Positions 1,967-56,881 of a stretch of DNA of 64,000 bases are shown here, in pieces. The stretch comes from Streptomyces sp. TLI_105. GTDB lineage: Bacteria; Actinomycetota; Actinomycetes; Streptomycetales; Streptomycetaceae. The DNA lies in contig NZ_FNSM01000001.1 of the NCBI RefSeq assembly GCF_900105415.1, forward strand, positions 3,200,501 through 3,264,500. Direction: 5' to 3'. The notes beneath the pieces were generated by a model. That model was not told the DNA's origin. It made no database searches and saw only the letters and a list, made by a program, of their open reading frames with translations. Numbering within the stretch: the first letter of the stretch is position 1; every line of letters begins with the position of its first letter. The translations under genes were made by a program, and so were the position numbers.

Positions 1967-1989
1967 CTGTCAGTGGGGTCCTCTACCGT
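1967..1989 (+). promoter_or_regulatory. RecA-NDp-like (PafBC-type) promoter of the DUF4132 gene
   Basis: CTGTCAGTG (1967-1975), 8 nt, TACCGT (1984-1989), then 7 nt to the ATG at 1997. The motif, the 8-nt spacing and the leaderless arrangement fit TTGTCRGTG-N8-TANNNT, the RecA/LexA-independent damage promoter described for Mycobacterium. Only the first base deviates. The SWIM gene at 47693 has the same layout. Confidence 0.72.
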
Positions 1990-1996
1990 CGGGAGC

Positions 1997-4483
1997 ATGG
2001 TGGGGATCACGGAACCGGGCGGCGGGTTGGACGAGGCGCTTGCGGAAGGGCCGGAGGCGGTGGGCGAGTTGATCGGCTCCCTGGACGCGACCGGTCGGCG
2101 CGAGGCGGCGCTCGCGCTTCACCGGCGCGTGTGCGGGCGGTCGGACGAGGGGACGGCGAAGGCCGTCCTCGCCGTCCTGGCCGGGCAGGAGCTGGGCTGG
2201 TCGGTCGCCGAGGCGGACCTGCTGCTCGCCCGGCTCCTCGGCAAGGACGCCGAAGTCGCCCCGCACGAACTGCGGAAGTCGTTCCTCGCCCTGGTGCCGA
2301 TCGTCCTGGCGGCGGCGGACGAGGCCGGGGACTTCGACCGGCCCCGGGTGCGGGTGCTGCGCGGCATGGCCGAGTACCTGCGGGTCCACCGGCAGGACGA
2401 GTTCAGCCTGCTCCGGGACCGGATGGACGTGCTGCTGCGCCGTGAGGCCCCCGTCGACGAGGGCCTGCTGCCCCGTCACCTCCTCGACGGGAACGACGAC
2501 TACGGCCCGGCGATGCGTGCCGCGCACGCGGAGCTGCTCGTCCGCCCCGGAGTGCCGGAACTCCTCGCGCACTGTGCCCTGATGGACCGGCCCCGGGCGA
2601 CGAGGGCCTGGCGGAAGGAGTCGGCCGCACGCCTCGCGCGGGCCGAGGCCGGGGCGGAGGTGGTGCGGCGGCTGTTGGAGGGGATCGCCGCACAGCCCGA
2701 GCACCGGGTGGACGATCCGGACCCCTACGGGATGGGGGTCCCGACCCTGGCCGACAGGGCCAACACCTCCCTCGTCCGCGGCCTGTCGTGGGCCGCGCTC
2801 GACGTCGACGCCGACTGGGTCGTGCCGCTCGTCGGGGCCGTCGCGCTGCACGCGGGGACGGGGATCGGCGGTTCCGGCGGGTTCTGCCGCAGTCAGCCGC
2901 TGGCCACGACGGCGGTCGCGGTGCTCGGGGAGTGCGGGGGCGCCCGGGCCGAGGAGGCCGTGCAGTGGCTCGGGCGGCTGCCGAAGAAGGTGAGGAACCG
3001 GACGGTCGGGAAGGGGATCGTGAAGGCCCTGGAGGCGGTGGCGGCCCGCTCCGGGCTCACGCCCTCTATGCTCCGCGAGCGCGGGGTGGCGACGCTCGGT
3101 CTGGGCGGGCGCGGGGTCCGGGAGGTGCCGCTCGGGGCGTACACGGCGGAGCTCTCGGTACGGGAGCCGGGCACGGTCGCGCTGTCCTTCAGGGGCCCGG
3201 AGGGGAGGCTCCTGAAGGCCGCGCCGAAGGAGGTCCGGGAGGCGCGCGCGGAGGAGCTGAAGGAGGTCAGGGCGACCCTGAAGGAGCTCAAGGGCCTGGT
3301 GGCGGCCGAGCGGTCCCGGCTCGAGGAGCACCTCGTGGCGGGGACGGTCTGGCCGGCGGAGGACTGGCAGCGGTACTACGTCGACCATCCGGTGACCGGA
3401 GCCCTGGCCCGTGCGCTGCTCTGGGAGGTCACGGAGGGCGCGGCGGACGGCGGGTGGACGGCCGGCGTCCCGGAGCGGGCGGGCGGCGGCTGGGCCCTCG
3501 CCGGGCACGACGGGACGGCGCGCCCGGTCGGTCCGGGCGCCCGGCTGCGGCTGTGGCATCCGCTGCGGGCCGGCGGCGAGGAGGTCGCCGAGTGGCGGAC
3601 CGCGCTGGCGGAGCGGGAGGAACGCCAGCCGTTCAAGCAGGTCTTCCGCGAGGTGTATCCGCTGACTCCGGCGGAGCTCGCGACCGGTTCGTACTCCAAC
3701 CGCTTCGCGGGGCACGTCCTGCGGTACGGGCAGGCGCGGGCGCTGATGGCCGAGCGCGGCTGGACGGGGAACCACCTGGGGTACTTCTCGGACGGCTGGT
3801 CCTCGGAGCTGGTGAAGGAGCTGCCCGCGCCGGGCGAGCTGCCGGCCGGGGAGGGGACGCGCTGGCGGGCCCGGTTCTTCGTGGAGCTGGTCGACGAGGG
3901 GGCGCGCGGGGACGGGGTGGCCCGGCTCTGCTCCACGGACCAGGTGCGCTTCGAGCGGCGGGCGGGGGCGCGGGGCGCCTGGGCGGCGGCCGCGCTGACC
4001 GACGTACCGGCGCTCGTGCTCTCCGAGGCGCTGCGGGACGTCGACCTGTTCGTGGGGGTGGCGTCGATCGGGGCGGACCCGCGGTGGCGGGACCGGGGGG
4101 AGGACCGGGCCTACGACGGGTACTGGGAGAGTTGGTCGTTCGGCGAGCTGACGGAGTCGGCGCTGATCCGGCGCGAGACGCTGTCCCGGCTGCTGCCCCG
4201 GACGCGGATCGCGGACCGGGTGGAGCTGACCGACCGCTTCCTGCGGGTCCGGGGCGAGCTGCGCGCGTACCGGATCCATCTGGGCTCGGGGAACGTGCTG
4301 ATGGAGCCGGACGACACCTATCTGTGCGTGGTGGAGGACCGCGTGCGGGACCGGGGGAAGGTGTTCCTGCCGTTCGAGGAGGACGGCGGGCTGCTCTCGG
4401 TGATCCTGTCGAAGGCGCTGCTGCTCGCCGCCGACGACCGCATCACCGACACGACGATCACCTCGCAGATACGCCGGGGCTGA
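1997..4483 (+). CDS. DUF4132 (MolR/YehI-type) protein
   Basis: This 828-residue soluble protein has a helical, HEAT-like N-terminal two thirds and a C-terminal DUF4132 domain from about residue 690. That domain carries the family signature RFLRVRGELRAYRIHLGSGN followed by LMEPDDTYLCVV. There is no signal peptide, membrane helix or N-terminal WGR domain, which E. coli YehI is known to have. The ATG at 1997 lies 7 nt after a damage-type -10 box; no Shine-Dalgarno at normal spacing is present. It overlaps the convergent hydrolase by 26 bp. DUF4132 proteins are uncharacterised. In E. coli the family member sits beside yehL, yehM, yehP and yehQ, whose homologues occur here at 42.7-49.0 kb under the same promoter type, so I infer a shared pathway. 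Confidence 0.85.
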   Translation: MVGITEPGGGLDEALAEGPEAVGELIGSLDATGRREAALALHRRVCGRSDEGTAKAVLAVLAGQELGWSVAEADLLLARLLGKDAEVAPHELRKSFLALVPIVLAAADEAGDFDRPRVRVLRGMAEYLRVHRQDEFSLLRDRMDVLLRREAPVDEGLLPRHLLDGNDDYGPAMRAAHAELLVRPGVPELLAHCALMDRPRATRAWRKESAARLARAEAGAEVVRRLLEGIAAQPEHRVDDPDPYGMGVPTLADRANTSLVRGLSWAALDVDADWVVPLVGAVALHAGTGIGGSGGFCRSQPLATTAVAVLGECGGARAEEAVQWLGRLPKKVRNRTVGKGIVKALEAVAARSGLTPSMLRERGVATLGLGGRGVREVPLGAYTAELSVREPGTVALSFRGPEGRLLKAAPKEVREARAEELKEVRATLKELKGLVAAERSRLEEHLVAGTVWPAEDWQRYYVDHPVTGALARALLWEVTEGAADGGWTAGVPERAGGGWALAGHDGTARPVGPGARLRLWHPLRAGGEEVAEWRTALAEREERQPFKQVFREVYPLTPAELATGSYSNRFAGHVLRYGQARALMAERGWTGNHLGYFSDGWSSELVKELPAPGELPAGEGTRWRARFFVELVDEGARGDGVARLCSTDQVRFERRAGARGAWAAAALTDVPALVLSEALRDVDLFVGVASIGADPRWRDRGEDRAYDGYWESWSFGELTESALIRRETLSRLLPRTRIADRVELTDRFLRVRGELRAYRIHLGSGNVLMEPDDTYLCVVEDRVRDRGKVFLPFEEDGGLLSVILSKALLLAADDRITDTTITSQIRRG

Positions 4484-6255: not shown

Positions 6256-6265
6256 GCTCGGCCCT

Positions 6266-8583: not shown

Positions 8584-8777
8584 TGCCGTGCTTCCTTTTT
8601 TTGAGACCACCCCAGATGCGACGGCCCCCGGAAAACGTCGCGCTGGCTGCATCCCATCACACGGCTTTCACATGGGGAAGGGAAAATTTTCACACGACAG
8701 GTATATGTCCGGGATATGAGAATTTAAGTCGATGAGCAGCACGTATCGCTCTCGGCGCGGGGAGTGACGGCGTCCGG

Positions 8778-10013: not shown

Positions 10014-10032
10014 GCCCCCCGGAACCCCTCTT

Positions 10033-10278
10033 CTAGGCGTCCGCGCGGCGCGCGGCGCGCACCCCGCGCAACCCGATCACACCGATCGCCGTCCCCAGGA
10101 CAAAGGACGTGACGGCAAGCAGCAGATGAACCCAGAAGTAGGCCGTCGGGTCGCCGGCGTCGTCGAAGGCGAGGCCGCTCCCGTCGTTCCAGAGGTTCTT
10201 GACGAAAGTGACCCAGATGAACCAACTCCATGCCCCGAACGCGAGCAGGAACCAGGAGACGCGGCGGCTGAGCTTCAT
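10033..10278 (-). CDS. Small two-helix membrane protein
   Basis: This 81-residue protein has two hydrophobic segments: residues 8-26 (SWFLLAFGAWSWFIWVTFV) and 48-70 (YFWVHLLLAVTSFVLGTAIGVIGL). A short acidic loop lies between them and the C-terminus is Arg-rich (RGVRAARRADA), which suggests cytoplasmic ends. The ATG at 10278 has GATACT 6 nt upstream on the minus strand, so a leaderless start is likely. The gene is divergent from the D-Ala-D-Ala carboxypeptidase and precedes the metallophosphoesterase, probably in one operon. I do not know a function for it. Confidence 0.75.
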   Translation of the reverse strand: MKLSRRVSWFLLAFGAWSWFIWVTFVKNLWNDGSGLAFDDAGDPTAYFWVHLLLAVTSFVLGTAIGVIGLRGVRAARRADA

Positions 10279-10387
10279 GACCCCAGTATCACCGTCGGCC
10301 TCCCGGTCCCCGCTTCCGGGTGGACGGGCGCGGGTGAACCGCCTGCCGGGGTTCGGATCGGTTGTGCGTACCTGTACGTTCTCGACC

Positions 10388-12605: not shown

Positions 12606-12826
12606 GTCGTACGTCTGCTCCTCGCGCCGTCGATCACTCGGTCACTCAGGTACGAGAATCCCCCGCCGGGGCTCGGGGACCCGCGACCGACATCCCGTAC
12701 GGCGCGGACGGTGCCGGACCGTGGGGGTTCTTTCCCGGTGCTCCTTGCGTTCCTTCGGGCATCCGTTCCGACGAGCCGCTCCGTAATACCGGCATAAGCG
12801 CCATATCCGGCTATACGGTCACCTCC

Positions 12827-14203
12827 ATGGCTGTCGAGACCCGCGTCCCGGACGAAGACTGCGAAGCGATCAGCGGCTGGGGCCGCACCGCCCCCACCCT
12901 CGCGCGCGTGCACCGGCCCCGCGGGCACGCCGAGGCCGTCGAGGCCGTCCTCGCCCCCGGCCGCCGGGGCGTCGTCGCCCGTGGCCTGGGCCGCGCGTGC
13001 GGCGACGCCGCGCAGAACGCCGGCGGCACCGTCCTCGACATGAGCGGCTTCGACCGGATCCTGGCCGTCGACACCAGCGCCGGGCTCGTCGTCTGCGAGG
13101 CGGGCGTCACCCTGCACCGGCTGATGGAGGCGCTGGTGCCGTTCGGCTGGTTCGTCCCCGTCGCCCCCGGCACCCGGTACATGACCGTCGGCGGCGCGAT
13201 CGGCGCTGACGTCCACGGCGGGAACCACCCCGTCTCGGGCTCCTTCGGCCGGCACGTGACCGCGCTCGAACTCCTCACCGCCGACGGGCAGATCCGCACC
13301 GTGCCGCCGGGGACCCCGCTCTTCGACGCCACCACCGGCGGCCTGGGCCTGACCGGCGTGATCCTCTCGGCCACCCTGCGGCTGCTGCCCGTCGAGACCT
13401 CCCTGATGCGCGTGGACACCGAGCGCGTCCCCGACCTCGACGCGCTGATGGCCCGGCTCGCCGACGGCGGCCGGCGGTACCGCTACTCCGCCGCCCGGAT
13501 CGACCTGCTCGCCCGGGGCGCCGCCACCGGCCGCGCCGTCCTGACCCGCGGCGACCACGTGCCGTACGACGCGCTGCCCCGCCGCCACCGGGCCCGCCGC
13601 ACGCCGTTGGACTTCCGGCCGGGGCGGCTGCCCGCACCGCCGCCGTACGTCCCCGGCGGACTGCTCGGCCGCACGTCCGTCGGGCTCCTCAACGAGCTCT
13701 GGTACCGCGGGGCCCCGCGCGCCGCCACCGGCCGGCTCCAGTCGCTGCCGGCCTTCTTCCACCCCCTCGACGGCGTCCCCCACCGGAACCGGATCCACGG
13801 GCCCGAGGGCTTCGTCCGGTACCGCTTCGTCGTCCCGTACGGGCAGGAGGACGCCCTCCGGCGGATCGTGCGGCGGATCGCGGACCGGGGCCTCCCCTCC
13901 TTCCCCGCCGTCCTGAAACGGTTCGGCGCGGGCGACCCCGGCCCGCTCTCCTTCCCCCTCCCCGGCTGGGCCCTCGCCCTCGGCCTCCCCACCGGCCTGC
14001 CCGGGCTCGGGCACTTCCTCGACGCGCTCGACGAGGAGGTCGCGGGCGTCGGCGGCCGGGTCGACCTCGCCGACGACTCCCGGGTCCGGCCGGAGGCCCT
14101 GGCCGCGATGTACCCCCGGCTCGACGAGTTCCGGGCGCTGCGCGCGGCGCTCGACCCGCGGTCCGTCTTCACCTCGGACCTCGCCCGCCGTCTCGGCCTC
14201 TAG
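12827..14203 (+). CDS. DprE1-like FAD-dependent decaprenylphosphoryl-ribose 2'-oxidase
   Basis: This 458-residue flavoprotein has a p-cresol-methylhydroxylase-type FAD-binding domain. ARGLGRACGDAAQN near residue 50 and GTRYMTVGGAIGADVHGGNH near 125 match the DprE1 flavin-binding blocks, and the C-terminal ALO-type domain ends with a YPRLDEFRALRAALDPRSVFTSDLARRL block. DprE1 with DprE2 epimerises polyprenylphosphoryl-ribose to arabinose at the membrane face. The segment PLSFPLPGWALALGLP corresponds to the Mycobacterium region carrying Cys387; Ala stands at that position here. TACGGT lies 7 nt before the ATG, so a leaderless mRNA is likely. The next gene is the cognate reductase, which strengthens the call. 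Confidence 0.86.
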   Translation: MAVETRVPDEDCEAISGWGRTAPTLARVHRPRGHAEAVEAVLAPGRRGVVARGLGRACGDAAQNAGGTVLDMSGFDRILAVDTSAGLVVCEAGVTLHRLMEALVPFGWFVPVAPGTRYMTVGGAIGADVHGGNHPVSGSFGRHVTALELLTADGQIRTVPPGTPLFDATTGGLGLTGVILSATLRLLPVETSLMRVDTERVPDLDALMARLADGGRRYRYSAARIDLLARGAATGRAVLTRGDHVPYDALPRRHRARRTPLDFRPGRLPAPPPYVPGGLLGRTSVGLLNELWYRGAPRAATGRLQSLPAFFHPLDGVPHRNRIHGPEGFVRYRFVVPYGQEDALRRIVRRIADRGLPSFPAVLKRFGAGDPGPLSFPLPGWALALGLPTGLPGLGHFLDALDEEVAGVGGRVDLADDSRVRPEALAAMYPRLDEFRALRAALDPRSVFTSDLARRLGL

Positions 14204-42688: not shown

Positions 42689-43852
42689 TCAGCCCTCGGG
42701 TATCGGGAGCGGGCGCTTCTCCAGGGCGGCCGCCATGATCTCCGGGAACAGGTCGGGGGTGCAGGCGAAGGCCGGGGCGCCGAGCGCGGCGAGCGCCGCC
42801 GCGTGGTCCCGGTCGTAGGCGGGGGCGCCCTCGTCGGAGAGCGCGAGCAGGGCGACGAACTGGACGCCGGAGGCCTTCATGGCCGCGACCCGCTTCAGCA
42901 TCTCGTCCCGGATGCCTCCCTCGTAGAGGTCGCTGACGAGGACGACGACGGTGTCGGCGGGGCGGGTGATCCTCGACTGGCAGTAGGCGAGGGCGCGGTT
43001 GATGTCGGTGCCGCCGCCGAGCCGGGTGCCGAAGAGGACGTCGACCGGGTCGTCGAGCTGCTCGGTCAGGTCGACGACGGAGGTGTCGAAGACGACGAGG
43101 CGGGTGGCGAGCGTGCGCATCGAGGCGAGCACCGCGCCGAAGACGGCGGCGTGGACGACGGAGGCGGCCATGGAGCCCGACTGGTCGACGCAGAGCACGA
43201 TCTCCTTCCTGACTCCCCGGGAGGCGCGCCCGTGGCCGACGAGCCGCTCGGGGACGACCGTGCGCTGCTCGGGCAGGTAGTGCTTGAGGTTGGCGCGGAT
43301 CGTGCGGTCCCAGTCGATGTCCCGGTGGCGGGGGCGGCTGATCCGGGCGGAGCGGTCGAGCGCACCGGTGAGGGTGGCACGGGTGCGGGCGGCGAGGCGC
43401 TTCTCCAGGTCGTCGACGACCTTGCGGACGACGGCCCGGGCGGTCTCCCGGGTCGTCTCGGGCATCGCCCTGCCGAGGGAGAGGAGGGTGCCGACGAGGT
43501 GCACGTCGGCCTCGACGGCCTCCAGCATCTCCGGCTCCAGGAGGAGGGTGGCGAGCCCGAGCCGGTCGATGGCGTCGCGCTGCATGACCTGGACGACGGA
43601 GCTCGGGAAGTACGTGCGGATGTCGCCGAGCCAGCGGGCGACGGAGGGCACGGACGCGCCGAGCCCGGCCGAGCGGTCCCGTCCGGTGCGGGGGCCGCTC
43701 TCGCTGGGGCGGTCGTAGAGCGCGGTGAGGGCTCCGTCCATGGCCGCGTCGGTGCCGGTGAGCGCCCTGCCGGTGCCGTCGGCCTCCCCGCCACCCAGGA
43801 CCAGCCGCCAGCGCCGCAGCCGCTCGTCGTCGGTGAGCGTCCTGTCCGTCAT
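42689..43852 (-). CDS. VWA-domain protein (YehP/CoxE type)
   Basis: This 387-residue cytoplasmic protein has a helical N-terminal half and a von Willebrand A domain at about 200-370. The metal-ion-dependent adhesion site is intact: DQSGSMAAS (DxSxS, about 216), the Thr in GGGTDINRAL, and the Asp in VVLVSDLYEGG. FDTSVVDLTEQLDDPVDVLFGTRLGGG matches the CoxE-like proteins that partner MoxR AAA ATPases. The ATG at 43852 overlaps the stop of the DUF5682 gene by 4 bp (ATGA). It is the third gene of the MoxR/DUF5682/VWA operon and corresponds to E. coli YehP. VWA partners usually present clients to the AAA ring; the client is unknown here. Confidence 0.87.
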   Translation of the reverse strand: MTDRTLTDDERLRRWRLVLGGGEADGTGRALTGTDAAMDGALTALYDRPSESGPRTGRDRSAGLGASVPSVARWLGDIRTYFPSSVVQVMQRDAIDRLGLATLLLEPEMLEAVEADVHLVGTLLSLGRAMPETTRETARAVVRKVVDDLEKRLAARTRATLTGALDRSARISRPRHRDIDWDRTIRANLKHYLPEQRTVVPERLVGHGRASRGVRKEIVLCVDQSGSMAASVVHAAVFGAVLASMRTLATRLVVFDTSVVDLTEQLDDPVDVLFGTRLGGGTDINRALAYCQSRITRPADTVVVLVSDLYEGGIRDEMLKRVAAMKASGVQFVALLALSDEGAPAYDRDHAAALAALGAPAFACTPDLFPEIMAAALEKRPLPIPEG

Positions 43853-46305
43853 GCGAGGGCCTCCGTTCCGAGGATGAGGTGGAGGAGCGGCAGCACGGCG
43901 TCCGCCCGCTCGGGGTCGGGGGCCGGGGCGAAGCCGGGCACGCCGGGCTCGGAGGGCCCCGGCCCGCCGGAACGGGGCCCCCGCGCGACCAGCTCCCCGA
44001 GCGTGCGGCGCACGCCCTGCTCGTAACCGGAGAAGGTGCGCCGCAGCAGCGGCAGGACGTCGGTGAACGCCTCGGCCGGGACGGACGTCAGCCAGGCGTC
44101 GACCAGTCCGAGGAGCCGCTCGTCGTGGACGAGGAGCAGTCCGCCGCCGGAGGCCCCGCCGACGAAGCCGTCGATCCAGGCGGCGGCGTCGGCCGGCGGG
44201 GTGCCGGGCGAGAGGGCGCGGCTCATGAGCAGGGCGGCCTCGCCGTCGGCGATCCGGCCCTCGTCGAGCAGAAGCCGGGCGGCCCGCCCCCGCAGGACGC
44301 CCGGTGTCCGGTCGCGGTCGGCGAGCCGGCGCAGCACCCCGGCCCACCGGTCGACGAGGTCGGGGCGGTCCGGGAGGAGGCCGATCGCCGTGTGGACGGC
44401 GTCGATCCGGTCCCGCATCTGCGCGGCGGCGTCCGTGTCGAGTCCGGCGCAGGCGGGCGGCAGGCCCACGCAGATCCGCTCGGCGAGCCCGGCGGCGACC
44501 TCGCCGAGGGCCGCCGTGCCGGTGCCGCGGACGTCGCCGTAGCGCAGGGCGCGGGCCAGAGCCGGGAGGGCCTGCGCCAGGTGGGCGACGTCGGTGTCGA
44601 GCGCGGCCCGGTCGGCGAGCGCCCGCATGACGACCGGAAGCGCGTCCGTGAGCCCGGCGAGGAGGCACTGCTCGGCGAGGACGGTGATGTCGCCGAGGGC
44701 GGTCGCGGCGAGGGCGCGGGACTCGGCCCTGGCGGTGGCGGCGGCCTCGACGGTGGTGCCCCAGACGCCGGCCTCGGCGACCTGGACGTACAGCTCGGGC
44801 TCCCAGCGCAGCCGCCAGGTCTCCCGGAAGGTGCCGGTGCCGGCCCGCCCGGCGGCCGGCTCGCCCCAGTGGACGCCGAGGAGGCGCAGCCGGTGCAGCA
44901 GCCGGCTGCGCTCGCCGTCGGTCTCCTTGCGGAGGTCGAGTCCGAGCTCGCGCTCCTGGGCCTCGGGCTTGAGGCGCAGGGTGCGCCGGCGGCGGTCCAG
45001 ATCGCGCTGGAGGGGTACGGCGGGGGCGCCGGCCGGCACCTCGCCGAGGACGTCGCCGACGACGAGGCGGTCGCGGACGAGGTCGAGCGGCACGTCGGAG
45101 CCCTCGCAGAGGACGGCGCGGACGGCGTCGGTCGCCTCGTCGAGGCCGGGGCGCGGACGGCCGCGCAGGACGGCGAGCGTCTCGGCGAGCCGGACGGCCT
45201 CGATGACGTGGGCGGAGGAGACGGGGTGGTCCTCGGCCCTGAGGAGCCCGGCGACCTTCGTCATCCAGCGCTCGACGGGCCGGTCGGGGGCGGCGAAGAG
45301 GTGTCCGTACCAGCCGGGCGCGTCGATCCCGGCGCCGTAGCCGGAGCGGCGGGCGAGTCTGCGGTGGGTCCAGGGGACCCAGGTCAGCTCGGCCTTCGCC
45401 CGGGGCAGGCCCTTGAGGAGGGCCTTGTCGGCGGCGACGGTGGTCCTGCGGGTGAGGGCGGGCACGTGCCAGGCGCCGCAGACCACGGCGACGGAGTCCC
45501 CGAACTCCTTGCGGGCGGCGCGCAGCTTGAGCCGCATGTGCGCCTCGCGGACCAGGTCGCGGGGGTGGCCGCCGTGTCCGTACGTCTCGCGGAGGGCGCC
45601 CATGGCCTCGGCGAGGGCCTCGAAGGGGGCGGTGGGATCGCCGTCCCCGCGCAGCTCGACGACGTCCTCCCACCAGCGCTCGGCGTCCTCGTACCCGGCG
45701 GCTCCGGCGAGTTCGGCGACCGGGTCGATCCGCGGGCCGCTGCCCGTGACCTCCTCCTCGTCCCTCCAGGTGGGGTCGGCGGCGGCGAGGGTGTGGGCGG
45801 CGGGCAGGTCGACGAAGCGGACGGCGGCGTCGTGGTCGAGGGCCCAGCGGATCGCGACCCACTCGGGCGAGAACTCGGCCATCGGCCAGAACGCGGCCCG
45901 CCCGGGGTCGTCCACGGCGTGGGCGAGCAGCGCGACGGGCGGCCGCATGTCCGGGTCCGCGGCGAGCGCCACGAGGGCGTCGGCCTCGGCGGGCCCCTCG
46001 ACGAGCACCGCGGCGGGCCGCGCCGCCTCCAACGCGGCCCGCACTCCACGCGCGGAGCCGGGCCCGTGATGCCGCACCCCCAGCAACAGGGGCTCCCTCC
46101 GGCCCCCACCGTTCTTGCCGGGACGGGGCTCGGCAGCCGAGACCCGGGAGGCGGCGGAGACCGGGGGCGCGTCCGAGGCGCGGGGCGCATGATGGGGCGC
46201 GTCCGACGCGCGGGCGCCGTCACGGAGGGCGTCCGACGCGCGGGGCGCGTCTCCGGGTGGGTCCGGTGGGCGGGAGGTGTTCGGGGCCGTGGTCGTCGAG
46301 GTCAT
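43849..46305 (-). CDS. DUF5682 protein (YehM type)
   Basis: This 818-residue soluble protein starts with about 65 low-complexity residues (repeated RASDAP), then has the family block LLLGVRHHGPGSARGVRAALEAARPAAVLVEGPAEAD (70-110). SVAVVCGAWHVPALTRR follows near 270, and the C-terminal half is helical, ending in DAVLPLLHLILG. The RHHGPGS and CGAWHVPAL motifs resemble the TraB/ChaN-type fold, where a His and acidic residues could bind metal; that is inference. It overlaps both neighbours by 4 bp. E. coli YehM is a family member, from memory. No biochemical activity is known for DUF5682. Confidence 0.83.
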   Translation of the reverse strand: MTSTTTAPNTSRPPDPPGDAPRASDALRDGARASDAPHHAPRASDAPPVSAASRVSAAEPRPGKNGGGRREPLLLGVRHHGPGSARGVRAALEAARPAAVLVEGPAEADALVALAADPDMRPPVALLAHAVDDPGRAAFWPMAEFSPEWVAIRWALDHDAAVRFVDLPAAHTLAAADPTWRDEEEVTGSGPRIDPVAELAGAAGYEDAERWWEDVVELRGDGDPTAPFEALAEAMGALRETYGHGGHPRDLVREAHMRLKLRAARKEFGDSVAVVCGAWHVPALTRRTTVAADKALLKGLPRAKAELTWVPWTHRRLARRSGYGAGIDAPGWYGHLFAAPDRPVERWMTKVAGLLRAEDHPVSSAHVIEAVRLAETLAVLRGRPRPGLDEATDAVRAVLCEGSDVPLDLVRDRLVVGDVLGEVPAGAPAVPLQRDLDRRRRTLRLKPEAQERELGLDLRKETDGERSRLLHRLRLLGVHWGEPAAGRAGTGTFRETWRLRWEPELYVQVAEAGVWGTTVEAAATARAESRALAATALGDITVLAEQCLLAGLTDALPVVMRALADRAALDTDVAHLAQALPALARALRYGDVRGTGTAALGEVAAGLAERICVGLPPACAGLDTDAAAQMRDRIDAVHTAIGLLPDRPDLVDRWAGVLRRLADRDRTPGVLRGRAARLLLDEGRIADGEAALLMSRALSPGTPPADAAAWIDGFVGGASGGGLLLVHDERLLGLVDAWLTSVPAEAFTDVLPLLRRTFSGYEQGVRRTLGELVARGPRSGGPGPSEPGVPGFAPAPDPERADAVLPLLHLILGTEALA

Positions 46306-47459
46306 GCGCTCACCTCGCGGCAGGCGCGGTAGAAGTCCTTCCAGCCGTCTCTCTCCCTCACGACCGTTTCCAGGTACTCCTGCCAGACGACCCGGTCGGC
46401 CGCCGGGTCACGGACGACCGCGCCGAGGATGCCGGCGGCGATGTCGCCGGGGCGCAGGACGCCGTCGCCGAAGTGGGCGGCGAGGGCGAGTCCGCCGGTG
46501 ACGACGGAGATCGCCTCGGCCGTCGAGAGCGTCCCCGAGGGGGACTTGACCTTCGTCCGGCCGTCGGTGGTGACGCCGTCCCGCAGCTCGCGGAAGACCG
46601 TGACGACCCGGCGGATCTCGTCCACGCCGTCGGGCAGGACGGGCAGTTCGAGGGAGCGGCCGAGCTGCTCGACCCGACGGGCGACGATGTCGACCTCGGC
46701 CTCGGGGGTCGCGGGCAGCGGCAGCACGACGGTGTTGAAGCGGCGGCGCAGCGCGCTGGAGAGCTCGTTGACGCCGCGGTCGCGGTCGTTGGCGGTGGCG
46801 ATCAGGTTGAAGCCGGGGACGGCCTGCACCTCCTGGCCGAGCTCGGGGACGGGCAGGGTCTTCTCGGACAGGATCGTGATGAGCGTGTCCTGCACGTCGG
46901 CGGGGATGCGGGTGAGCTCCTCGACCCGGACGGTCATGCCCTGGGACATCGCGCGCATCACGGGGCTGGGGACGAGGGCGCCCCCGCTGGGGCCGTGGGC
47001 GAGGAGTCGCGCGTAGTTCCAGCCGTACCGGATGGCTTCCTCGGGCGTGCCGGCGGTGCCCTGGACGAGGAGGGTGGAGTCGCCGCTGACGGCGGCGGCG
47101 AGGTGCTCGGAGACCCAGGTCTTGGCGGTGCCGGGGACGCCGAGGAGGAGCAGCGCCCGGTCGGTGGCGAGCGTGGTGACGGCGACTTCCACGATGCGGC
47201 GCGGTCCGACGTACTTGGGCGTGATGACGGTGCCGTCGGGGAGCGTGCCGCCGAGGAGGTAGGTGGCGACGGCCCACGGGGAGAGGCGCCAGCGGGCGGG
47301 CCGGGGCCGGTCGTCGGCGGCGGCGAGGGCCGCGAGTTCGTGGGCGAAGGCGTGCTCCACGTGCGGCCGCAGGGCCTCGGTGGCGGTCTGCGGCCGCCCC
47401 GGTCCGGTGTCCGTCTCGACACCGGAACCGGGCTTCGCGATGGTTTCGGGCACGGGCAT
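46302..47459 (-). CDS. MoxR-family AAA+ ATPase (YehL type)
   Basis: This 385-residue ATPase has Walker A GVPGTAKTW (about 115), Walker B/sensor region VRVEELTRIPADVQDTLITILSEK (MoxR type with EELTR), sensor 1 NLIATANDRDRGVNELSSALRRRF, and a C-terminal lid. Walker A has Ala-Lys-Thr instead of Gly-Lys-Thr, as in many MoxR proteins. The ATG at 47459 follows GAGGGGGATCC, a good ribosome site, and the transcript should start near 47490 from a RecA-NDp-like promoter. It is first in the operon and overlaps the DUF5682 gene by 4 bp. MoxR ATPases remodel or insert cofactors into client proteins with VWA partners. Confidence 0.9.
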   Translation of the reverse strand: MPVPETIAKPGSGVETDTGPGRPQTATEALRPHVEHAFAHELAALAAADDRPRPARWRLSPWAVATYLLGGTLPDGTVITPKYVGPRRIVEVAVTTLATDRALLLLGVPGTAKTWVSEHLAAAVSGDSTLLVQGTAGTPEEAIRYGWNYARLLAHGPSGGALVPSPVMRAMSQGMTVRVEELTRIPADVQDTLITILSEKTLPVPELGQEVQAVPGFNLIATANDRDRGVNELSSALRRRFNTVVLPLPATPEAEVDIVARRVEQLGRSLELPVLPDGVDEIRRVVTVFRELRDGVTTDGRTKVKSPSGTLSTAEAISVVTGGLALAAHFGDGVLRPGDIAAGILGAVVRDPAADRVVWQEYLETVVRERDGWKDFYRACREVSA

Positions 47460-47497
47460 GGATCCCCCTCCAGATCGTTCGACCTGCTGTGTGATCC

Positions 47498-47520
47498 ACC
47501 GTGCACCATGCCACTGACAA
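47498..47520 (-). promoter_or_regulatory. RecA-NDp-like promoter of the MoxR operon
   Basis: On the minus strand TTGTCAGTG (47520-47512), a perfect match to the upstream half, then 8 nt, then CACGGT (47503-47498). The -10 deviates from TANNNT only in its first base. The predicted start near 47490 leaves a leader of about 30 nt with a Shine-Dalgarno before the ATG at 47459. Confidence 0.6.
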
Positions 47521-47662
47521 TCGGATGTCACCGCTGGTCAGGGCCGGTTGGGGAAGGTGAGGGAGGGTCAGTCGACGATCGTCGGTCGACTCGATGTTCC
47601 CGCCGCCGGCCTCGTACGTGACCTCGTAGGTCTCGTTGCCTGGAACCGCCGGGCCGAGGGCG

Positions 47663-47685
47663 TTGTCAGTGGCGGCCCCTACCTT
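47663..47685 (+). promoter_or_regulatory. RecA-NDp-like promoter of the SWIM gene
   Basis: TTGTCAGTG (47663-47671), exactly 8 nt, TACCTT (47680-47685), then 7 nt to the ATG at 47693. This is a full match to TTGTCRGTG-N8-TANNNT and again leaderless. Between this and the divergent MoxR promoter lies a perfect AGTCGAC/GTCGACT inverted repeat (47570-47576, 47585-47591). Confidence 0.78.
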
Positions 47686-47692
47686 CGATGAC

Positions 47693-49039
47693 ATGAATGC
47701 CATGGGGGTGCGCTGGACGACGGAACAGGTGCTTGCGCTGGCTCCTGACGAGGCGTCGCGCAGAGCGGGGAGCGAGCTCGGCACGGCCGGGCCCTGGTCG
47801 GAGACGGGCTGCGGTGACGGCGTCGTCTGGGGCCTGTGCAAGGGCAGCGGAAGCACGCCGTACCGGACGGTCGTCGACACGACGGGACCCGCGTACTCGT
47901 GCGGTTGCCCCAGCCGGAAGTCTCCCTGCAAGCACGCGCTGGGCCTGCTGCTGCTCCGGGCGGCGGACGGGATCGCCGCCGAGGGGTGCCCCGCGCCCGA
48001 CTGGGCCGCGCAGTGGCTCACCGCGCGGCGCGACCGGACCGCGAGCGCGGACCTTCGGGCCGGGGACGGGGCCCCGGGAGCGACGGCGGATCCGGAGGCG
48101 GTGCGCCGCCGGGCCGAGCGCAGGGCGGCCCGTATCACCTCGGGCGCGCGGGAGTTGGAGCAGCGCCTCGCCGACCTGCTGCGCGGCGGTCTGGCGGTGG
48201 CCGGCCAGGCGGGGTACGGGCTGTGGGAGGAGACGGCGGCCCGCATGGTCGACGCCCAGGCGCCGGGGCTCGCCGGGCGGGTCCGGGAACTGGGGGCGAT
48301 ACCGGCCTCGGGGCCGGGCTGGCCGGTGCGGCTCCTGGAGGAGTGCGCGCTGACGCATCTCCTCGGCCGGGCGTGGCTGGCGGCGGACCGGCTGCCCGCC
48401 CCGTTCGCGACGACGGTGCGGACCCGGGTGGGCCTCACCGCCCCGGCCGACGGCGTCCCGGTGCGCGACCACTGGCTGGTCCTCGCCCAGTACGACGCGT
48501 CCGACGCCCGGCTGACGACCCGGCGGATCTGGCTGTACGGCACGACGACCGGGCGCACCGCGCTCCTGCTCTCCTTCGGCGCGGCGGGCCGGGCGCCGCA
48601 GCTCGCGCTCCCCGTGGGCGCCTTGCTGGACGGCGAGTTGACGCCGCACACCGGCTCGGGTCAGGTGCGGGCTGAGCCGGGCGAGCGGTTCGTCCCGGTC
48701 GCGGGACCCGTCGCCCCGCCGGCGGGCGGACCGGTCGGCGCGGCGCTCGACGCGTACGGTCGCGCGCTCCGCGAGGACCCGTGGCTGGGCTCCTGGCCCG
48801 TGACGCTGAGACAGGTCGTACCGGCGCGCGCGGAGTACGGCTGGCAGCTCGCCGACGCCGACGGCCGCGAGGCGCTGCCCCTGACGCCCGCCGCCCAGTC
48901 CCGGCCCGGTCTCTGGCGCCTGGTCGCCCTGTCCGGCGGCGCCCCGGTGACCGTCTTCGGCGAGGTCGGGCACCGGGGGTTCACCCCGCTCGCCGCCTGG
49001 TCGCCGGAGGCCCCGGGCGAGACGGTCCCCCTCATATGA
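47693..49039 (+). CDS. SWIM zinc-finger protein (YehQ type)
   Basis: This 448-residue protein has a SWIM domain near residues 55-90: YSCGCPSRKSPCKHALGLLLL, the CxCx(n)CxH pattern (Cys 72, 74, Cys 81, His 83, approximately) that binds zinc and often nucleic acid or protein. A basic region (RRRAERRAARITSGARELEQRLADLLRGGL) follows, then a beta-rich C-terminal part. The ATG at 47693 is 7 nt after the -10 of a RecA-NDp-like promoter. It is divergent from the MoxR operon and overlaps or abuts the DUF5691 gene. Equivalent to E. coli YehQ. SWIM domains occur in several DNA-repair factors, which fits the promoter type, but the role here is unproved. Confidence 0.87.
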   Translation: MNAMGVRWTTEQVLALAPDEASRRAGSELGTAGPWSETGCGDGVVWGLCKGSGSTPYRTVVDTTGPAYSCGCPSRKSPCKHALGLLLLRAADGIAAEGCPAPDWAAQWLTARRDRTASADLRAGDGAPGATADPEAVRRRAERRAARITSGARELEQRLADLLRGGLAVAGQAGYGLWEETAARMVDAQAPGLAGRVRELGAIPASGPGWPVRLLEECALTHLLGRAWLAADRLPAPFATTVRTRVGLTAPADGVPVRDHWLVLAQYDASDARLTTRRIWLYGTTTGRTALLLSFGAAGRAPQLALPVGALLDGELTPHTGSGQVRAEPGERFVPVAGPVAPPAGGPVGAALDAYGRALREDPWLGSWPVTLRQVVPARAEYGWQLADADGREALPLTPAAQSRPGLWRLVALSGGAPVTVFGEVGHRGFTPLAAWSPEAPGETVPLI

Positions 49040-49077
49040 CGCCCGGCCACCGCGCACCGACCCACCGGAGGAGCCCG

Positions 49078-50925
49078 ATGGACACGACCGCGACCACCAC
49101 CACCGCCGCCCCGGCGGCGGGAACGACCGCCGACGACGAGGCGTCCACCCCGTCCTGGGAGGAGCTCGTCAGCTCGGCGATGCTGGGGACGGACCGTCGG
49201 CCTCCCGCCGCGCCCGCGGGCTCCGCCGCGGCCCGGGACCTGCCGGGCGCGCTGCTCGACGCGGCCGCGCTGCACACCGTACGACGCAGGGCGGGGCTGC
49301 GGCCCGGCCCCGCCGCGCCCTTGCCGGAGCCCGCGCCGGAGGATCCGCGTGCGCCGCTGCCCGAGGCCGCCCGGCTCCGCCTCGACCAGCTGCTCGCCGG
49401 CCGGACCGCGCCCTCGCCCGCCGGGCGGCGCGGGGCCGCCCCCGACCTGGCCGAGCTGCTCCCCCAGTGGCTGGCCCTCGCAGACCGGCACGGCTACAAG
49501 GCGCCGCCCGCCGCCCTGCCCGCGCTGCTCGACGCGGCCAGGGCCCGCACCGATCTGCGCCCCCAGGCGCTGCGTCTGGCGGGTCCGCGCGGCCTGTGGC
49601 TGGCCCGGCTCAACCCCGAGTGGAGGTTCGCCCTCCGGGGCCGGGGCGCGGGCGGCCGCCTCCCGTCCCCGGAGGACGCCGAGGGGGTCCGCGCGCTGTG
49701 GGACGAGGGCCTGTTCGCCGAGCGGGTCGCCCTGCTCTCCGCCGTACGGACCGAGGACCCGGCCGCCGGTCTCGCGCTGCTCGCCTCGACCTGGTCCACC
49801 GAGCGGGCGGAGGACCGGCTGATGTTCCTGGACTCGCTGCGGGCCGGGCTCTCCGGCGCCGACGAGGAGTTCCTGGAAGAGGCCCTCGACGACCGCAGCC
49901 GCAACGTCCGGGCCACCGCCGCCGAGTTGCTCTCCGCCCTGCCGGCCTCCGCTCTCGCGGGCCGGATGGCGGCCCGGGCCGCCACCTGCGTCGGCCTGGA
50001 CCGGACGGCCCCGACTCCGACGATCGCCGTCGAGGCCCCGCACGAGTGCGACGCGGCGATGCAACGGGACGGCCTGGTGGCGACGCCTCCGGCGGGCCGG
50101 GGCGAGCGTTCCTGGTGGCTGGGCCAGCTCGTCGAGGCGACGCCGCTGCCCTCCTGGCCGGCCAGGTTCGGGGGACGCGGCCCGGAGGAGATCGTGGCGC
50201 TGCCGGTCGCCGACGACTGGCAGGGCGAACTGCACGCGGCCTGGTGCCGGGCCGCCGTGCGCCAGCGGGACCCGGCGTGGTCGCGCGCGCTGCTCGGATC
50301 CCCCGGCGACCCGCCCGCGACGGGCCCCGGCACCTCGTCCCTGGGCGAGCGCGCCCAGCTCCTGTCGACGCTGCCCGTGGAGGAACGGGCGCGCTGGGTC
50401 GCCTCGTTCATCGCGGCCCACGGCCTGTCGGAGGCGTTCCAGCTGCTCGGCGTCTGCGCCGTCCCGTGGGCGGAGCCGCTCGGCGTCGCGGTGATCGACG
50501 CGCTCGACATCGCGCGCGAGGCGGGCAGTTACCCGTGGAGCTTCAGCGGGGTGATGGGCCTCGCGGAGCGCTGCCTCGCCCCGGAGGCGGCACGCCGGCT
50601 GGAGTCCCTGACGGCCCGTCCGGACGAGGCGGAGGACAGCTCCCCCGGCGCGGGCGACTACTGGTCGGAGGCCTTCCAGCGCCTGGTCTCCACCCTCCGC
50701 CTCCGCGCCGCGATGCACACCGAACTCACCCCACCGCCCCCGGCGGGCGCCCCCGCACCGTCACCGCCGGGCGCCCCCGCACCACCGCCCGGCTCCGCAC
50801 CACCGTCCGGCCCCACACCGGCACCCGGCTCCGCACCGTCCCCCGGCTCCGTACCGCCGCCCGGCTCCGCACCGTCCCCCCGCTCCGCACCATCCCCCGC
50901 TCCCGCACCGGCGCCCGGCTCCTGA
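49078..50925 (+). CDS. DUF5691 helical-repeat protein
   Basis: This 615-residue protein is almost all helical and HEAT-like: WEELVSSAMLGTDRR near the start is the DUF5691 opening, then ARDLPGALLDAAALHTVRRRAG, LLPQWLALADRHGYKAPPAALPALLDAAR, and EEFLEEALDDRSRNVRATAAELLSALP (a clear HEAT unit). The last 70 residues are a Pro/Ala/Ser repeat (PGSAPSPGS style) encoded by short tandem DNA repeats. The ATG at 49078 was chosen because GGAGGAG precedes it; an ATG at 49036 overlapping the SWIM stop is possible. It is in operon with SWIM. I have no E. coli counterpart; it probably scaffolds the MoxR/VWA system. Confidence 0.8.
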   Translation: MDTTATTTTAAPAAGTTADDEASTPSWEELVSSAMLGTDRRPPAAPAGSAAARDLPGALLDAAALHTVRRRAGLRPGPAAPLPEPAPEDPRAPLPEAARLRLDQLLAGRTAPSPAGRRGAAPDLAELLPQWLALADRHGYKAPPAALPALLDAARARTDLRPQALRLAGPRGLWLARLNPEWRFALRGRGAGGRLPSPEDAEGVRALWDEGLFAERVALLSAVRTEDPAAGLALLASTWSTERAEDRLMFLDSLRAGLSGADEEFLEEALDDRSRNVRATAAELLSALPASALAGRMAARAATCVGLDRTAPTPTIAVEAPHECDAAMQRDGLVATPPAGRGERSWWLGQLVEATPLPSWPARFGGRGPEEIVALPVADDWQGELHAAWCRAAVRQRDPAWSRALLGSPGDPPATGPGTSSLGERAQLLSTLPVEERARWVASFIAAHGLSEAFQLLGVCAVPWAEPLGVAVIDALDIAREAGSYPWSFSGVMGLAERCLAPEAARRLESLTARPDEAEDSSPGAGDYWSEAFQRLVSTLRLRAAMHTELTPPPPAGAPAPSPPGAPAPPPGSAPPSGPTPAPGSAPSPGSVPPPGSAPSPRSAPSPAPAPAPGS

Positions 50926-54398: not shown

Positions 54399-56849
54399 CT
54401 ACAGCTTCTCGACCGGCGCGTACCGCAGGAGCAGCCGCTTCGGCTTCTCGTCGCCGAAGTCGATCGTCGCCTGGGCGTCCCCGCCGGCGCCCTGCACCGC
54501 CATGACCGTGCCGAGCCCGAACTGGTCGTGCGTGACCCGGTCGCCGACCTTGAGGGAGATGACCGGCTTCTCGCCGGCGCGCCGGGTGGCGAAGCCGGAG
54601 GGGCCGGAGCGCGAGCGGGAGGACGAGAGCGAGGAGGTGATCCCCGAGGTCGGCCCGGCGGGCTTGGCCATCGGACCGGTCCGCTTCCACTCCAGGTACG
54701 CGGGCGGGATCTCCTCCAGGAAGCGCGAGGCCGGGTTGTACGAGGGCTGGCCCCAGGCGCTGCGCATCGACGAGCGGGTGAGGTAGAGCCGCTCACGCGC
54801 GCGCGTGATGCCCACGTACGCCAGGCGCCGCTCCTCCTCCAGCTCCTTCGTCTGCCCGAGGGCGCGCATGTGCGGGAAGACGCCGTCCTCCATGCCGGTG
54901 AGGAACACCACCGGGAACTCCAGGCCCTTGGCGGTGTGCAGGGTCATCAGGGTGATGACGCCCCGGCCCTCCTCGTCCTCGTCGGGGATCTGGTCGGAGT
55001 CGGCGACGAGGGCGACCTGCTCCAGGAACTCGGCGAGGGTCGCGGGCTCCTCGCCGCGCTCCTGCTCGAACTCGAGGGCGACGGCGGCGAGTTCCTGGAG
55101 GTTCTCGATGCGGGTCTCGTCCTGCGGGTCGGTCGAGGCCTGGAGCTCGGCGAGATAGCCCGTCCGCTCCAGGACGGCCTCCAGGACGACGGCGGGGCCG
55201 GCGCCGGACTCGACGACGGTGCGCAGTTCGTCCATGAGCGCGTTGAACCGCTTCACGGCGTTCGCCGAGCGGGCGGCCATGCCGTACGCCTCGTCGACCC
55301 GCTTGAGGGCCTGCGGGAAGGTGATCTTCTCCCGCAGGGACAGGGCGTCGATCATCGCCTCGGCGCGCTCGCCGATGCCGCGCTTGGGGACGTTGAGGAT
55401 GCGGCGCAGCGGGACGTTGTCCTCGGGGTTGGCGAGGACGCGCAGGTACGCGAGGACGTCCCGGACCTCCTTGCGCTCGTAGAAGCGCACGCCGCCGACG
55501 ACCTTGTAGGGCAGGCCGACGCGGATGAAGATCTCTTCGAAGACACGGGACTGGGCGTTGGTCCGGTAGAAGACGGCGACGTCCCCGGCCTTGGCCTCGC
55601 CCGCGTCGGTGAGCCGGTCGATCTCGTCGGCGACGAACTGGGCCTCGTCGTGCTCGGTGTCGGCGACGTAACCGGTGATCTGCGATCCCGCGCCCGCGTT
55701 CGTCCACAGGTTCTTGGGGCGGCGGGACTCGTTGCGCTCGATGACGGCGTTGGCGGCGGAGAGGATCGTCTGGGTGGAGCGGTAGTTCTGCTCCAGGAGG
55801 ATCGTCGTCGCGTCCGGGTAGTCCTCCTCGAACTGGAGGATGTTGCGGATGGTCGCGCCGCGGAAGGCGTAGATCGACTGGTCGGCGTCGCCGACGACGC
55901 ACAGCTCGGCCGGGCCGAGGTCCTCGTAGCCGGTGCCGACGAGCTCGCGCACCAGCGTGTACTGGGCGTGGTTGGTGTCCTGGTACTCGTCGACGAGCAC
56001 GTGGCGGAAGCGCCGCCGGTAGTGCTCGGCGACGTCGGGGAACGCCTGGAGGAGGTGGACCGTCGTCATGATGATGTCGTCGAAGTCCAGGGCGTTGGCC
56101 TCGCGCAGCCGCGCCTGGTACATCCGGTACGCCTCGGCGAGCGTCTTCTCGAAGCCGTCGGCGGCCTGGTCGGCGAAGGCCTCCTCGTCGATCAGCTCGT
56201 TCTTCAGGTTCGAGATCTTGGCGCTGAACGACTTCGGCGGGAACTTCTTCGGGTCGAGGTCCAGGTCCCGGCAGACCAGCGACATCAGCCGCTTGGAGTC
56301 GGCGGCGTCGTAGATCGAGAAGGAGGAGGTGAAGCCGAGCTTCTTCGACTCGCGGCGCAGGATGCGGACGCAGGCGCTGTGGAAGGTCATGACCCACATC
56401 GCGTTGGCCCGCGGTCCGACGAGCTGCTCGACGCGCTCCTTCATCTCGCCGGCGGCCTTGTTCGTGAAGGTGATCGCCAGTATCTGGCCGGGGTGGACGT
56501 GCCGGGTGCCCAGGAGGTGGGCGATGCGGTGGGTGAGCACCCGGGTCTTGCCCGAGCCTGCGCCGGCGACGATGAGCAGCGGGGTGCCCGTGTGGACGAC
56601 GGCGGCGCGCTGCTGCTCGTTCAGCCCCTCCAGGAGCGCGGCGGGGTCCACGACGGGCCGGGGGTGGCCGTCGCGGTAGTGCGTCTCCCGGGCGGGCGGA
56701 GGCGCGTCGAAGTGCTCCCCGAAGAGGTCGTGCGGGACCTCCTCCTCGGCCGGCGGGGAGCCGTGCTCGTCGTCCTCGGGGTGGGGCGGCGGCTCCTCCG
56801 AGTGGTTCTGGAGGCCGGCCAGGAAGCTGTCGTCAAAGAGGCTGCTCAT
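54399..56849 (-). CDS. pcrA: ATP-dependent DNA helicase PcrA/UvrD
   Basis: This 816-residue SF1A helicase has an acidic N-terminal extension of about 65 residues, then the Q motif and Walker A (LNEQQRAAVVHTGTPLLIVAGAGSGKTRVL). Further motifs include TFTNKAAGEMKERV (Ia), LVDEYQDTNHAQY (II), GDADQSIYAFRGA (III), QNYRSTQTIL (IV), VITLMTLHTAKGLEFPVVFL (V) and EERRLAYVGITRARERL (VI). It unwinds DNA in excision repair, removes RecA filaments and acts at stalled forks. The ATG at 56849 stands just after the -10 of a RecA-NDp-like promoter, so damage induction is likely. Confidence 0.95.
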   Translation of the reverse strand: MSSLFDDSFLAGLQNHSEEPPPHPEDDEHGSPPAEEEVPHDLFGEHFDAPPPARETHYRDGHPRPVVDPAALLEGLNEQQRAAVVHTGTPLLIVAGAGSGKTRVLTHRIAHLLGTRHVHPGQILAITFTNKAAGEMKERVEQLVGPRANAMWVMTFHSACVRILRRESKKLGFTSSFSIYDAADSKRLMSLVCRDLDLDPKKFPPKSFSAKISNLKNELIDEEAFADQAADGFEKTLAEAYRMYQARLREANALDFDDIIMTTVHLLQAFPDVAEHYRRRFRHVLVDEYQDTNHAQYTLVRELVGTGYEDLGPAELCVVGDADQSIYAFRGATIRNILQFEEDYPDATTILLEQNYRSTQTILSAANAVIERNESRRPKNLWTNAGAGSQITGYVADTEHDEAQFVADEIDRLTDAGEAKAGDVAVFYRTNAQSRVFEEIFIRVGLPYKVVGGVRFYERKEVRDVLAYLRVLANPEDNVPLRRILNVPKRGIGERAEAMIDALSLREKITFPQALKRVDEAYGMAARSANAVKRFNALMDELRTVVESGAGPAVVLEAVLERTGYLAELQASTDPQDETRIENLQELAAVALEFEQERGEEPATLAEFLEQVALVADSDQIPDEDEEGRGVITLMTLHTAKGLEFPVVFLTGMEDGVFPHMRALGQTKELEEERRLAYVGITRARERLYLTRSSMRSAWGQPSYNPASRFLEEIPPAYLEWKRTGPMAKPAGPTSGITSSLSSSRSRSGPSGFATRRAGEKPVISLKVGDRVTHDQFGLGTVMAVQGAGGDAQATIDFGDEKPKRLLLRYAPVEKL

Positions 56850-56858
56850 CGCCTCACG

Positions 56859-56881
56859 AGTCTAGGACGCCCCGCCGACAT
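56859..56881 (-). promoter_or_regulatory. RecA-NDp-like promoter of pcrA
   Basis: On the minus strand ATGTCGGCG (56881-56873), 8 nt, TAGACT (56864-56859), then 9 nt to the ATG at 56849. It deviates from TTGTCRGTG at the first and eighth positions, but spacing and -10 are exact. This is the weakest upstream half of the five sites, supported by the repair function of the gene. Confidence 0.6.

Follow-up and report, generated by a model that had tools for sequence, protein, structure and literature searches.

Introduction

Several described systems join a MoxR-type AAA ATPase to a VWA protein of the CoxE type. RavA-ViaA, CoxD-CoxE and other MoxR-VWA pairs consist of such a AAA motor and its VWA protein, and in the MoxR-vWA ternary conflict systems the two have further partners (VMAP, iSTAND, beta-propeller). 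In E. coli, YehL (AAA), YehM (DUF5682) and YehP (VWA) are encoded next to one another, together with the DUF4132 protein YehI and the SWIM protein YehQ. Here we describe a five-gene cluster of this kind in Streptomyces sp. TLI_105, located at positions 42689 to 50925 of a 64,000-nucleotide stretch of its DNA (the window; contig NZ_FNSM01000001.1, positions 3,200,501 to 3,264,500), and a DUF4132 gene elsewhere in the window. Both arms of the cluster and the DUF4132 gene are headed by promoters of the RecA-NDp (PafBC) type, and we propose, with a probability of about 0.6, that the cluster encodes one DNA-damage-induced AAA/VWA protein-remodelling machine.

Members of these families have been reported under damage regulators in other bacteria. 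A radiation response motif was described ahead of a putative five-gene operon of Deinococcus deserti that contains genes for a MoxR ATPase and for a VWA protein; by the same account, D. radiodurans and D. geothermalis lack this operon (PMC2669436). Depletion of DdrO in D. radiodurans was reported to cause a strong rise of DRA0166 (DUF4132) and DR2173 (WGR) (PMC8533742), and molR of E. coli is listed among the known LexA-regulated genes (PMC11039860).

Results

The genes and promoters of the cluster, and those of the separate DUF4132 gene, are as follows.

42689..43852, minus strand: VWA protein of the CoxE type, relative of YehP (PF05762, E 6.4e-62; phmmer 223 bits)
43849..46305, minus strand: DUF5682 protein, relative of YehM (PF18934 over its full length, E 8.6e-294; phmmer 131 bits)
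45316..46110, minus strand: DUF5682 residues 66-330, predicted EreA/ChaN (TIKI) fold (Foldseek matches re-examined)
46302..47459, minus strand: AAA+ ATPase of the MoxR type, relative of YehL (Pfam AAA_5, E 8.9e-37; phmmer 226 bits)
47498..47520, minus strand: RecA-NDp-like promoter of the AAA arm (one mismatch; -10 CACGGT)
47663..47685, plus strand: RecA-NDp promoter of the SWIM arm (no mismatch; ATG 7 nt past the -10, apparently leaderless)
47693..49039, plus strand: SWIM zinc-finger protein (PF04434, 21.2 bits, just above the cut-off of 19.6)
49036..50925, plus strand: DUF5691 protein (PF18944 over its full length, E 5e-176)
1967..1989, plus strand: RecA-NDp promoter of the DUF4132 gene (one mismatch; ATG 7 nt past the -10)
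1997..4483, plus strand: DUF4132 and DUF7737 protein, no WGR match (PF13569, E 1.9e-47; PF24879, E 6.1e-39)

Gene calls and Pfam bore out the arrangement given in a preliminary description of this DNA, with AAA, DUF5682 and VWA genes diverging from SWIM and DUF5691 genes and an overlap of 4 bp in every same-strand neighbouring pair (AAA/DUF5682, DUF5682/VWA and SWIM/DUF5691). The cluster is flanked by a uvrD-type helicase gene on one side and sucCD on the other. Pfam scores for VWA_CoxE, DUF5682, AAA_5, DUF5691 and DUF4132 were far over their cut-offs. By eye, the translations contained a Walker A sequence (GVPGTAKT) in the AAA protein, a DxSxS (MIDAS) motif in the VWA protein and a CxC...CxH zinc-finger motif in the SWIM protein. 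The suggestion that DUF5691 might be a diverged DUF4132 was abandoned, as comparison of their profiles gave a probability of 1.8%.

The proposed likeness to the E. coli Yeh proteins was also upheld, both by the phmmer scores and by the yehI-K-L-M-P-Q order of E. coli, which agrees with the preliminary description. AAA, DUF5682 and VWA genes are adjacent and in the same order in both organisms with a SWIM protein beside them; the window differs in having DUF5691 in place of the adjacent DUF4132 and SWIM on a divergent arm. The SWIM protein of the window has the SWIM domain in common with YehQ, but a one-step phmmer search returned no match between the two. The D. deserti operon (Deide_18730-18690), compared by its published description, has the same count of five genes, with MoxR third and VWA fifth by number, but it has a Deinococcus-type motif rather than RecA-NDp and is co-directional (PMC2669436). 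Compared with RavA-ViaA and CoxD-CoxE, the cluster has three extra partners (DUF5682, SWIM, and DUF5691 or DUF4132) and DNA-damage promoters.

This likeness to the MoxR-VWA pairs raises the first alternative, that the AAA and VWA proteins form a maturation chaperone, inserting metal into or activating one enzyme needed under DNA damage. Such a role is ascribed to well-studied MoxR-VWA pairs (PMC7159879), and the D. deserti authors proposed a chaperone for specific substrates (PMC2669436). The VWA protein here is of the CoxE type and has a weak likeness to ViaA (E 1.2e-5 in NCBIfam, a score well short of the model cut-off); in NCBIfam the window proteins had only remote resemblances, to ViaA and to MadB/GvpN. 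We nevertheless consider this explanation rather unlikely, as the SWIM and WGR domains and the damage promoters point to nucleic acid, and no further enzyme was common by name to five annotated plasmid regions carrying the genes (the 80 genome loci described below were not searched for one).

We scanned the 8.88-Mb genome for the RecA-NDp (PafBC-type) promoter pattern, TTGTCAGTGG-N7-TANNNT, with the reversed pattern as control. There were 96 sites at two or fewer mismatches versus 15 for the reversed pattern. Thirteen sites were perfect, one of them heading the SWIM arm and another a second, diverged cluster (type D, below). Downstream genes were identified for the 11 perfect sites that remained and for nine one-mismatch sites, out of 31, that were picked for a good -10; Pfam was run on 10 of these 20 proteins, selected after reading the translations. 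Perfect sites preceded recA, the gene of the DNA polymerase III beta clamp, a radA-like gene (named from its domains) and genes for a macrodomain-ADP-ribosyltransferase, a WGR-propeller protein and a DUF4253 protein, and one-mismatch sites preceded ruvC and a uracil-DNA glycosylase gene. Two of the ten proteins had no Pfam match. Like members of the PafBC/RecA-NDp regulon, the cluster has the motif TTGTCAGTG and a -10 at fixed spacing ahead of the gene and a near-leaderless start, with recA in the same set; unlike them, its genes have no known activity. Two adjacent WYL genes (C1:6594216 and 6595177) lie some 2 kb past a gene of the Pup-ligase family, as expected for PafB and PafC, and were named from this position. 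The matching damage-type promoters claimed in the preliminary description for both arms and the DUF4132 gene are thus RecA-NDp sites with no or one mismatch. We infer from these promoter sequences that the cluster is probably induced by DNA damage via PafBC, which was described as sensing single-stranded DNA (PMC11804915).

Details of some genes behind RecA-NDp sites are recorded here. Perfect sites precede the macrodomain protein, which is fused to an NAD:arginine ADP-ribosyltransferase (L171, 184-2514), the protein of a WGR domain and a beta-propeller, which starts 7 nt past the -10 (L170, 1080-2516), and a protein of at least 822 aa with no Pfam match (L169, 3-2468). In the window, a weak two-mismatch RecA-NDp-like site (56859-56881, minus strand) lies just upstream of the uvrD/pcrA-type helicase gene near the cluster (54399-56849, minus strand). 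Another two-mismatch site (12-34, minus strand), with an ATG about 7 nt on, faces a gene that leaves the low end of the window.

Co-occurrence was counted at profile cut-off in 246 genomes of the phylum, after dropping three DUF5691 matches and one DUF4132 match below cut-off; many of these genomes are kin, so that the p values overstate independence. DUF5682 was present in 19 genomes, DUF5691 in 17 and DUF4132 in 12. All 17 DUF5691 genomes also had DUF5682 (Fisher p 2e-24; outside the genus 9/9, p 9e-15). DUF4132 occurred with DUF5682 in 10/12 genomes (p 3e-11) but outside the genus in only 2/4 (p 0.011).

The genes were found in four architectures. In type A, that of the window, SWIM-DUF5691 is combined with AAA-DUF5682-VWA, and the two arms diverge in Streptomyces (L004, L007, L019, L020) and are co-directional in other actinobacteria (L013-L016, L022); in L011 and L018 SWIM and DUF5691 are in one frame. 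Type B, which is E. coli-like, has WGR-DUF4132, AAA, DUF5682, VWA and SWIM (L008). Type C has a short DUF4132, a 1670-aa protein, AAA and a fused DUF5682-VWA (L005 and L021; L009 is similar), and type D has VWA, AAA and a diverged DUF5682 (L003, L006, L010, L012). The five genes of the cluster are one unit. Co-occurrence, operon and fusion evidence joins its two arms, and this part of the earlier proposal of one system split in the chromosome stands.

L003 belongs to the same genome as the window (6100-13576; C1:7626099 onward, 7.63 Mb). In this second, diverged VWA-AAA-DUF5682-like cluster, a perfect RecA-NDp site is followed by genes for 144- and 464-aa proteins without Pfam match ahead of the cluster. 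Its DUF5682-like protein was assigned to no family by hmmscan, yet matched PF18934 at 4.9e-29 in the genome search.

Genome contigs were scanned with a DUF5682 alignment of type B, a query that favours type B, and the best 80 of 569 loci were examined. By their titles they come from Proteobacteria, Actinobacteria, Firmicutes, Planctomycetes, Verrucomicrobia, Spirochaetes and Acidobacteria-type organisms. Fifty-eight were testable, with at least 6 kb of flank on both sides, and in 53 of these DUF4132-AAA-DUF5682-VWA-SWIM shared a strand and spanned no more than 9.5 kb. A WGR match was present in 12 of the 53; L027, L030, L037, L077 and L093 were the exceptions. With this type B query, DUF5691 was found in none of the best 80 loci. 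Co-directional type A sets were found on plasmids of Deinococcus taeanensis (L163; order SWIM, DUF5691, AAA, a small hypothetical gene, DUF5682, VWA) and Rhizobium etli, and sets with no annotated VWA gene on plasmids of Hymenobacter radiodurans, where DUF5682 is annotated in pieces, and Methylosinus. An Iodobacter plasmid (L164, 1330-18734) has a full cassette directly beside a type I restriction-modification set. In phages, the only contig found with a DUF5682-like stretch (31.7% identity) was MT835988.1 (11382-12785), a 14-kb phage-labelled, unannotated gut contig that may be a misfiled bacterial fragment.

Carriage on plasmids, the restriction genes beside the Iodobacter copy and a weak score (24.4 bits, below the cut-off of 27) of the AAA protein with the bpMoxR domain found in MoxR-vWA-propeller systems suggest a second alternative, an anti-phage or conflict system akin to the ternary ones, for which damage would be a signal of infection. 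MoxR and vWA proteins with further partners are indeed common to both. However, the VMAP, iSTAND or beta-propeller partner is not present in the six proteins, Pfam found no further conflict-system domain in them, and PADLOC models gave no match at E 0.01. The families of the cluster are also unnamed, by the six terms tried, in the main text of the eLife 2020 survey. Typical defence islands differ as well from a SWIM gene present in 113 of 121 Streptomyces genomes and from sco4804 of S. coelicolor (discussed below), whose position was described as conserved across the genus (PMC8120823). We regard this alternative as distinctly unlikely.

The conservation of the promoters was assessed in the same 121 Streptomyces genomes, using the 30 best SWIM loci, the window's own included. 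All 30 had a RecA-NDp site ahead of SWIM with 0-1 mismatches and a divergent second site with 1-2 mismatches, and the reversed pattern was found in none. The second site lay at the AAA start in 29/30 loci (-202 to +51 bp from the start of the longest frame, by script); in L116 it shares the strand of the longest AAA frame and lies deeper within it.

The three further Yeh-type architectures in Streptomyces also carried the promoter. It faced yehI with 0 or 1 mismatches in six of the seven yehI-AAA-DUF5682 loci (L008, L192-L194, L196, L202, L203). The exception was L194, in which the DUF5682 frame is shortened and a perfect site points the opposite way, to a divergent frame. This frame is of 735 aa and starts in a way that resembles yehI, and the L194 region at 13180-13420 is a near-mirror repeat of the yehI beginning. 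Two yehI-type genes were cassette-free, one with the promoter ahead (L195) and one with none (L201). The promoter preceded all five type C clusters found (L005, L021, L229-L231; 0-1 mismatches) and all three of type D (L003, L006, L232; 0 mismatches). The damage-type promoters are thus far more general than the window had indicated. A further actinobacterial sample of 36 loci (668 kb; one from Streptomyces, two with DUF4132 but no cassette) had eight sites at one or fewer mismatches and none of the reversed pattern. Seven were at the cassette: in five loci the coordinates put the site upstream of a cassette gene (L070, L083, L093, L098, L101), and in two it was placed by reading the sequence (L011, L012); another L011 site lies elsewhere.

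The DUF4132 gene of the window is not adjacent to the cassette, its start being 46 kb from that of SWIM, and it is the only DUF4132 in the genome at E 0.001. Relatives were present in 39/121 Streptomyces genomes, in 25 of them above 300 bits. A RecA-NDp site preceded 23 of the 30 relatives kept at two or fewer mismatches (19 at one or fewer). L137, L139, L140, L161 and L162 had no motif, L160 had an unrelated weak site only, and the L144 site points at a divergent yehI. Relatives above 300 bits lay 41-89 kb from SWIM in 17/25 genomes; of the other eight, two were far away on the same contig (G355, G340), five were on another contig and one genome was without SWIM. This spacing looks like old synteny rather than an operon. 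The promoter class argues for membership of the distant gene in the system, as does L008 of another Streptomyces, where a divergent DUF4132-DUF7737 gene like that of the window adjoins a full yeh operon. On the other hand, the five-gene unit does not need DUF4132, since a DUF4132 of this type (above 300 bits) was found in 25/121 genomes versus 113/121 for SWIM. The proposal that the distant gene is a split-off part of the system is therefore only partly supported, and the best reading is that it is a co-regulated accessory and not an obligatory part.

Structure models and fold comparisons predicted that DUF5682 consists of an N-terminal EreA/ChaN-like domain and a C-terminal half of helical repeats. 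The N-terminal domain was folded alone because a search with the whole protein was swamped by the repeats. R78, H79, H80, E103, R253 and H280 were invariant in 41/41 aligned relatives. The predicted fold and the positions of conserved H, E, R and H residues are like those of the EreA/ChaN/TIKI superfamily; the helical-repeat half and the lack of a significant sequence match set DUF5682 apart. Pfam ChaN matched one relative weakly (E 0.12), hhalign with E. coli YbaP gave a probability of 3.8, and a sequence search of the PDB returned nothing useful. The TraB family was tried as a stepping stone and rejected (0/41 genomes of the relatives).

We also looked for damage control in other phyla. In D. 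taeanensis a one-mismatch RDRM-like palindrome abuts the -10 ahead of the SWIM gene. No second site at two or fewer mismatches occurs in 31.5 kb, and this one was equalled in 8 of 4000 shuffles of the 100 bp. In Hymenobacter, Rhizobium and Methylosinus there was just one two-mismatch RDRM site, 190 bp before the Hymenobacter gene. In E. coli a LexA-like box, probably the published molR operator, stands 27 bp upstream of yehF, where the yeh genes begin.

Published work on S. coelicolor bears on the cluster if its genes are matched correctly. With SCO4797 taken as uvrD and SCO4808 as sucC, the order of the window between the uvrD-type helicase and sucCD fits this numbering. SCO4804 is then probably DUF5682, SCO4803 AAA and SCO4805 VWA. 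This assignment is favoured because, of the five proteins, only DUF5682 is as long as the 815 aa of SCO4804 (757-997 aa, longest starts, 23/24 loci) and because an operon would account for the published decrease of sco4805 (PMC8120823). That study reports that a transposon in sco4804 lowered TopA protein and topA and gyrB transcripts, that overexpression raised both transcripts briefly and that TopA depletion raised sco4804 and adjacent genes about eightfold (PMC8120823).

These effects would fit a third alternative, in which SCO4804 increases the transcription of topA and gyrB and the cluster is a sensor of supercoiling rather than of damage. Against this, plasmid supercoiling was reported to be unchanged in both the disruption and the overexpression strains, SCO4804 protein showed only non-specific binding to DNA and none to TopA, and the authors concluded that the effect was indirect (PMC8120823). 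Moreover, the match of SCO4804 to DUF5682 is itself putative and, if it is right, depletion of TopA may switch the cluster on via PafBC. We hold a regulator of topology genes to be very improbable.

Discussion

The reading we prefer is a damage-induced remodelling machine. PafBC would sense damage and switch on both arms. The MoxR-type AAA ATPase would be the motor, the CoxE-type VWA protein its adaptor, and DUF5682 would contribute, on its helical scaffold, the EreA/ChaN-like domain, which may be hydrolytic. SWIM and DUF5691, or WGR/DUF4132 in other lineages, would recognise the client. The likeliest client is a DNA-bound protein complex blocking repair, replication or topoisomerase traffic, and the machine would extract, refold or cut it. 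The distant DUF4132 protein would belong to the same regulon as an alternative targeting subunit.

A more specific version is a damage-induced machine that extracts and cuts proteins stuck on DNA. The AAA/VWA pair would pull the protein, the DUF5682 EreA/ChaN-fold domain would hydrolyse it or its bond, and the SWIM, WGR, DUF4132 and DUF5691 subunits would recognise the lesion, with damage control gained independently via LexA, DdrO and PafBC. In this specific form we hold the idea to be unlikely.

Several observations weigh against a damage-induced remodelling machine. The AAA-arm site matched the pattern fully in none of the 30 Streptomyces loci, having 1-2 mismatches throughout, and 29 of the 36 further actinobacterial loci were without a cassette site at one or fewer mismatches. 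Several of the ten downstream genes not run through Pfam look non-repair by eye (e.g. L177, L183). A study of S. venezuelae states that, in an initial search, conservation of the PafBC motif of M. smegmatis was not seen in that species (PMC9380542). In other phyla, LexA-type boxes were not clearly enriched before the cassette, in a scan that would miss the weak E. coli box (boxes per kb upstream vs overall: gamma-type 0.56 vs 0.36, Gram-positive 1.46 vs 1.52, alpha-type 0). Damage control, moreover, would not prove a role in repair. Our literature search, with subscription papers and supplements outside it, returned no paper on the activity of the cassette or on its control by PafBC and none, beyond those cited, on the cassette as a damage system; DUF5682 and DUF5691 were unnamed.

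What is new here is the presence of RecA-NDp (PafBC-type) promoters on both arms and on the distant DUF4132 gene. DUF5682 gains a predicted fold and candidate catalytic residues. For S. coelicolor, if the gene assignment is right, the cluster offers another explanation for the published result on topA regulation. The Yeh cassette spans many phyla and sits in E. coli K-12, and three unrelated damage regulators, through PafBC-type promoters in Streptomyces, DdrO in Deinococcus and LexA at molR in E. coli, converge on the same families. This convergence gives these families of unknown function a testable role in the response to DNA damage.

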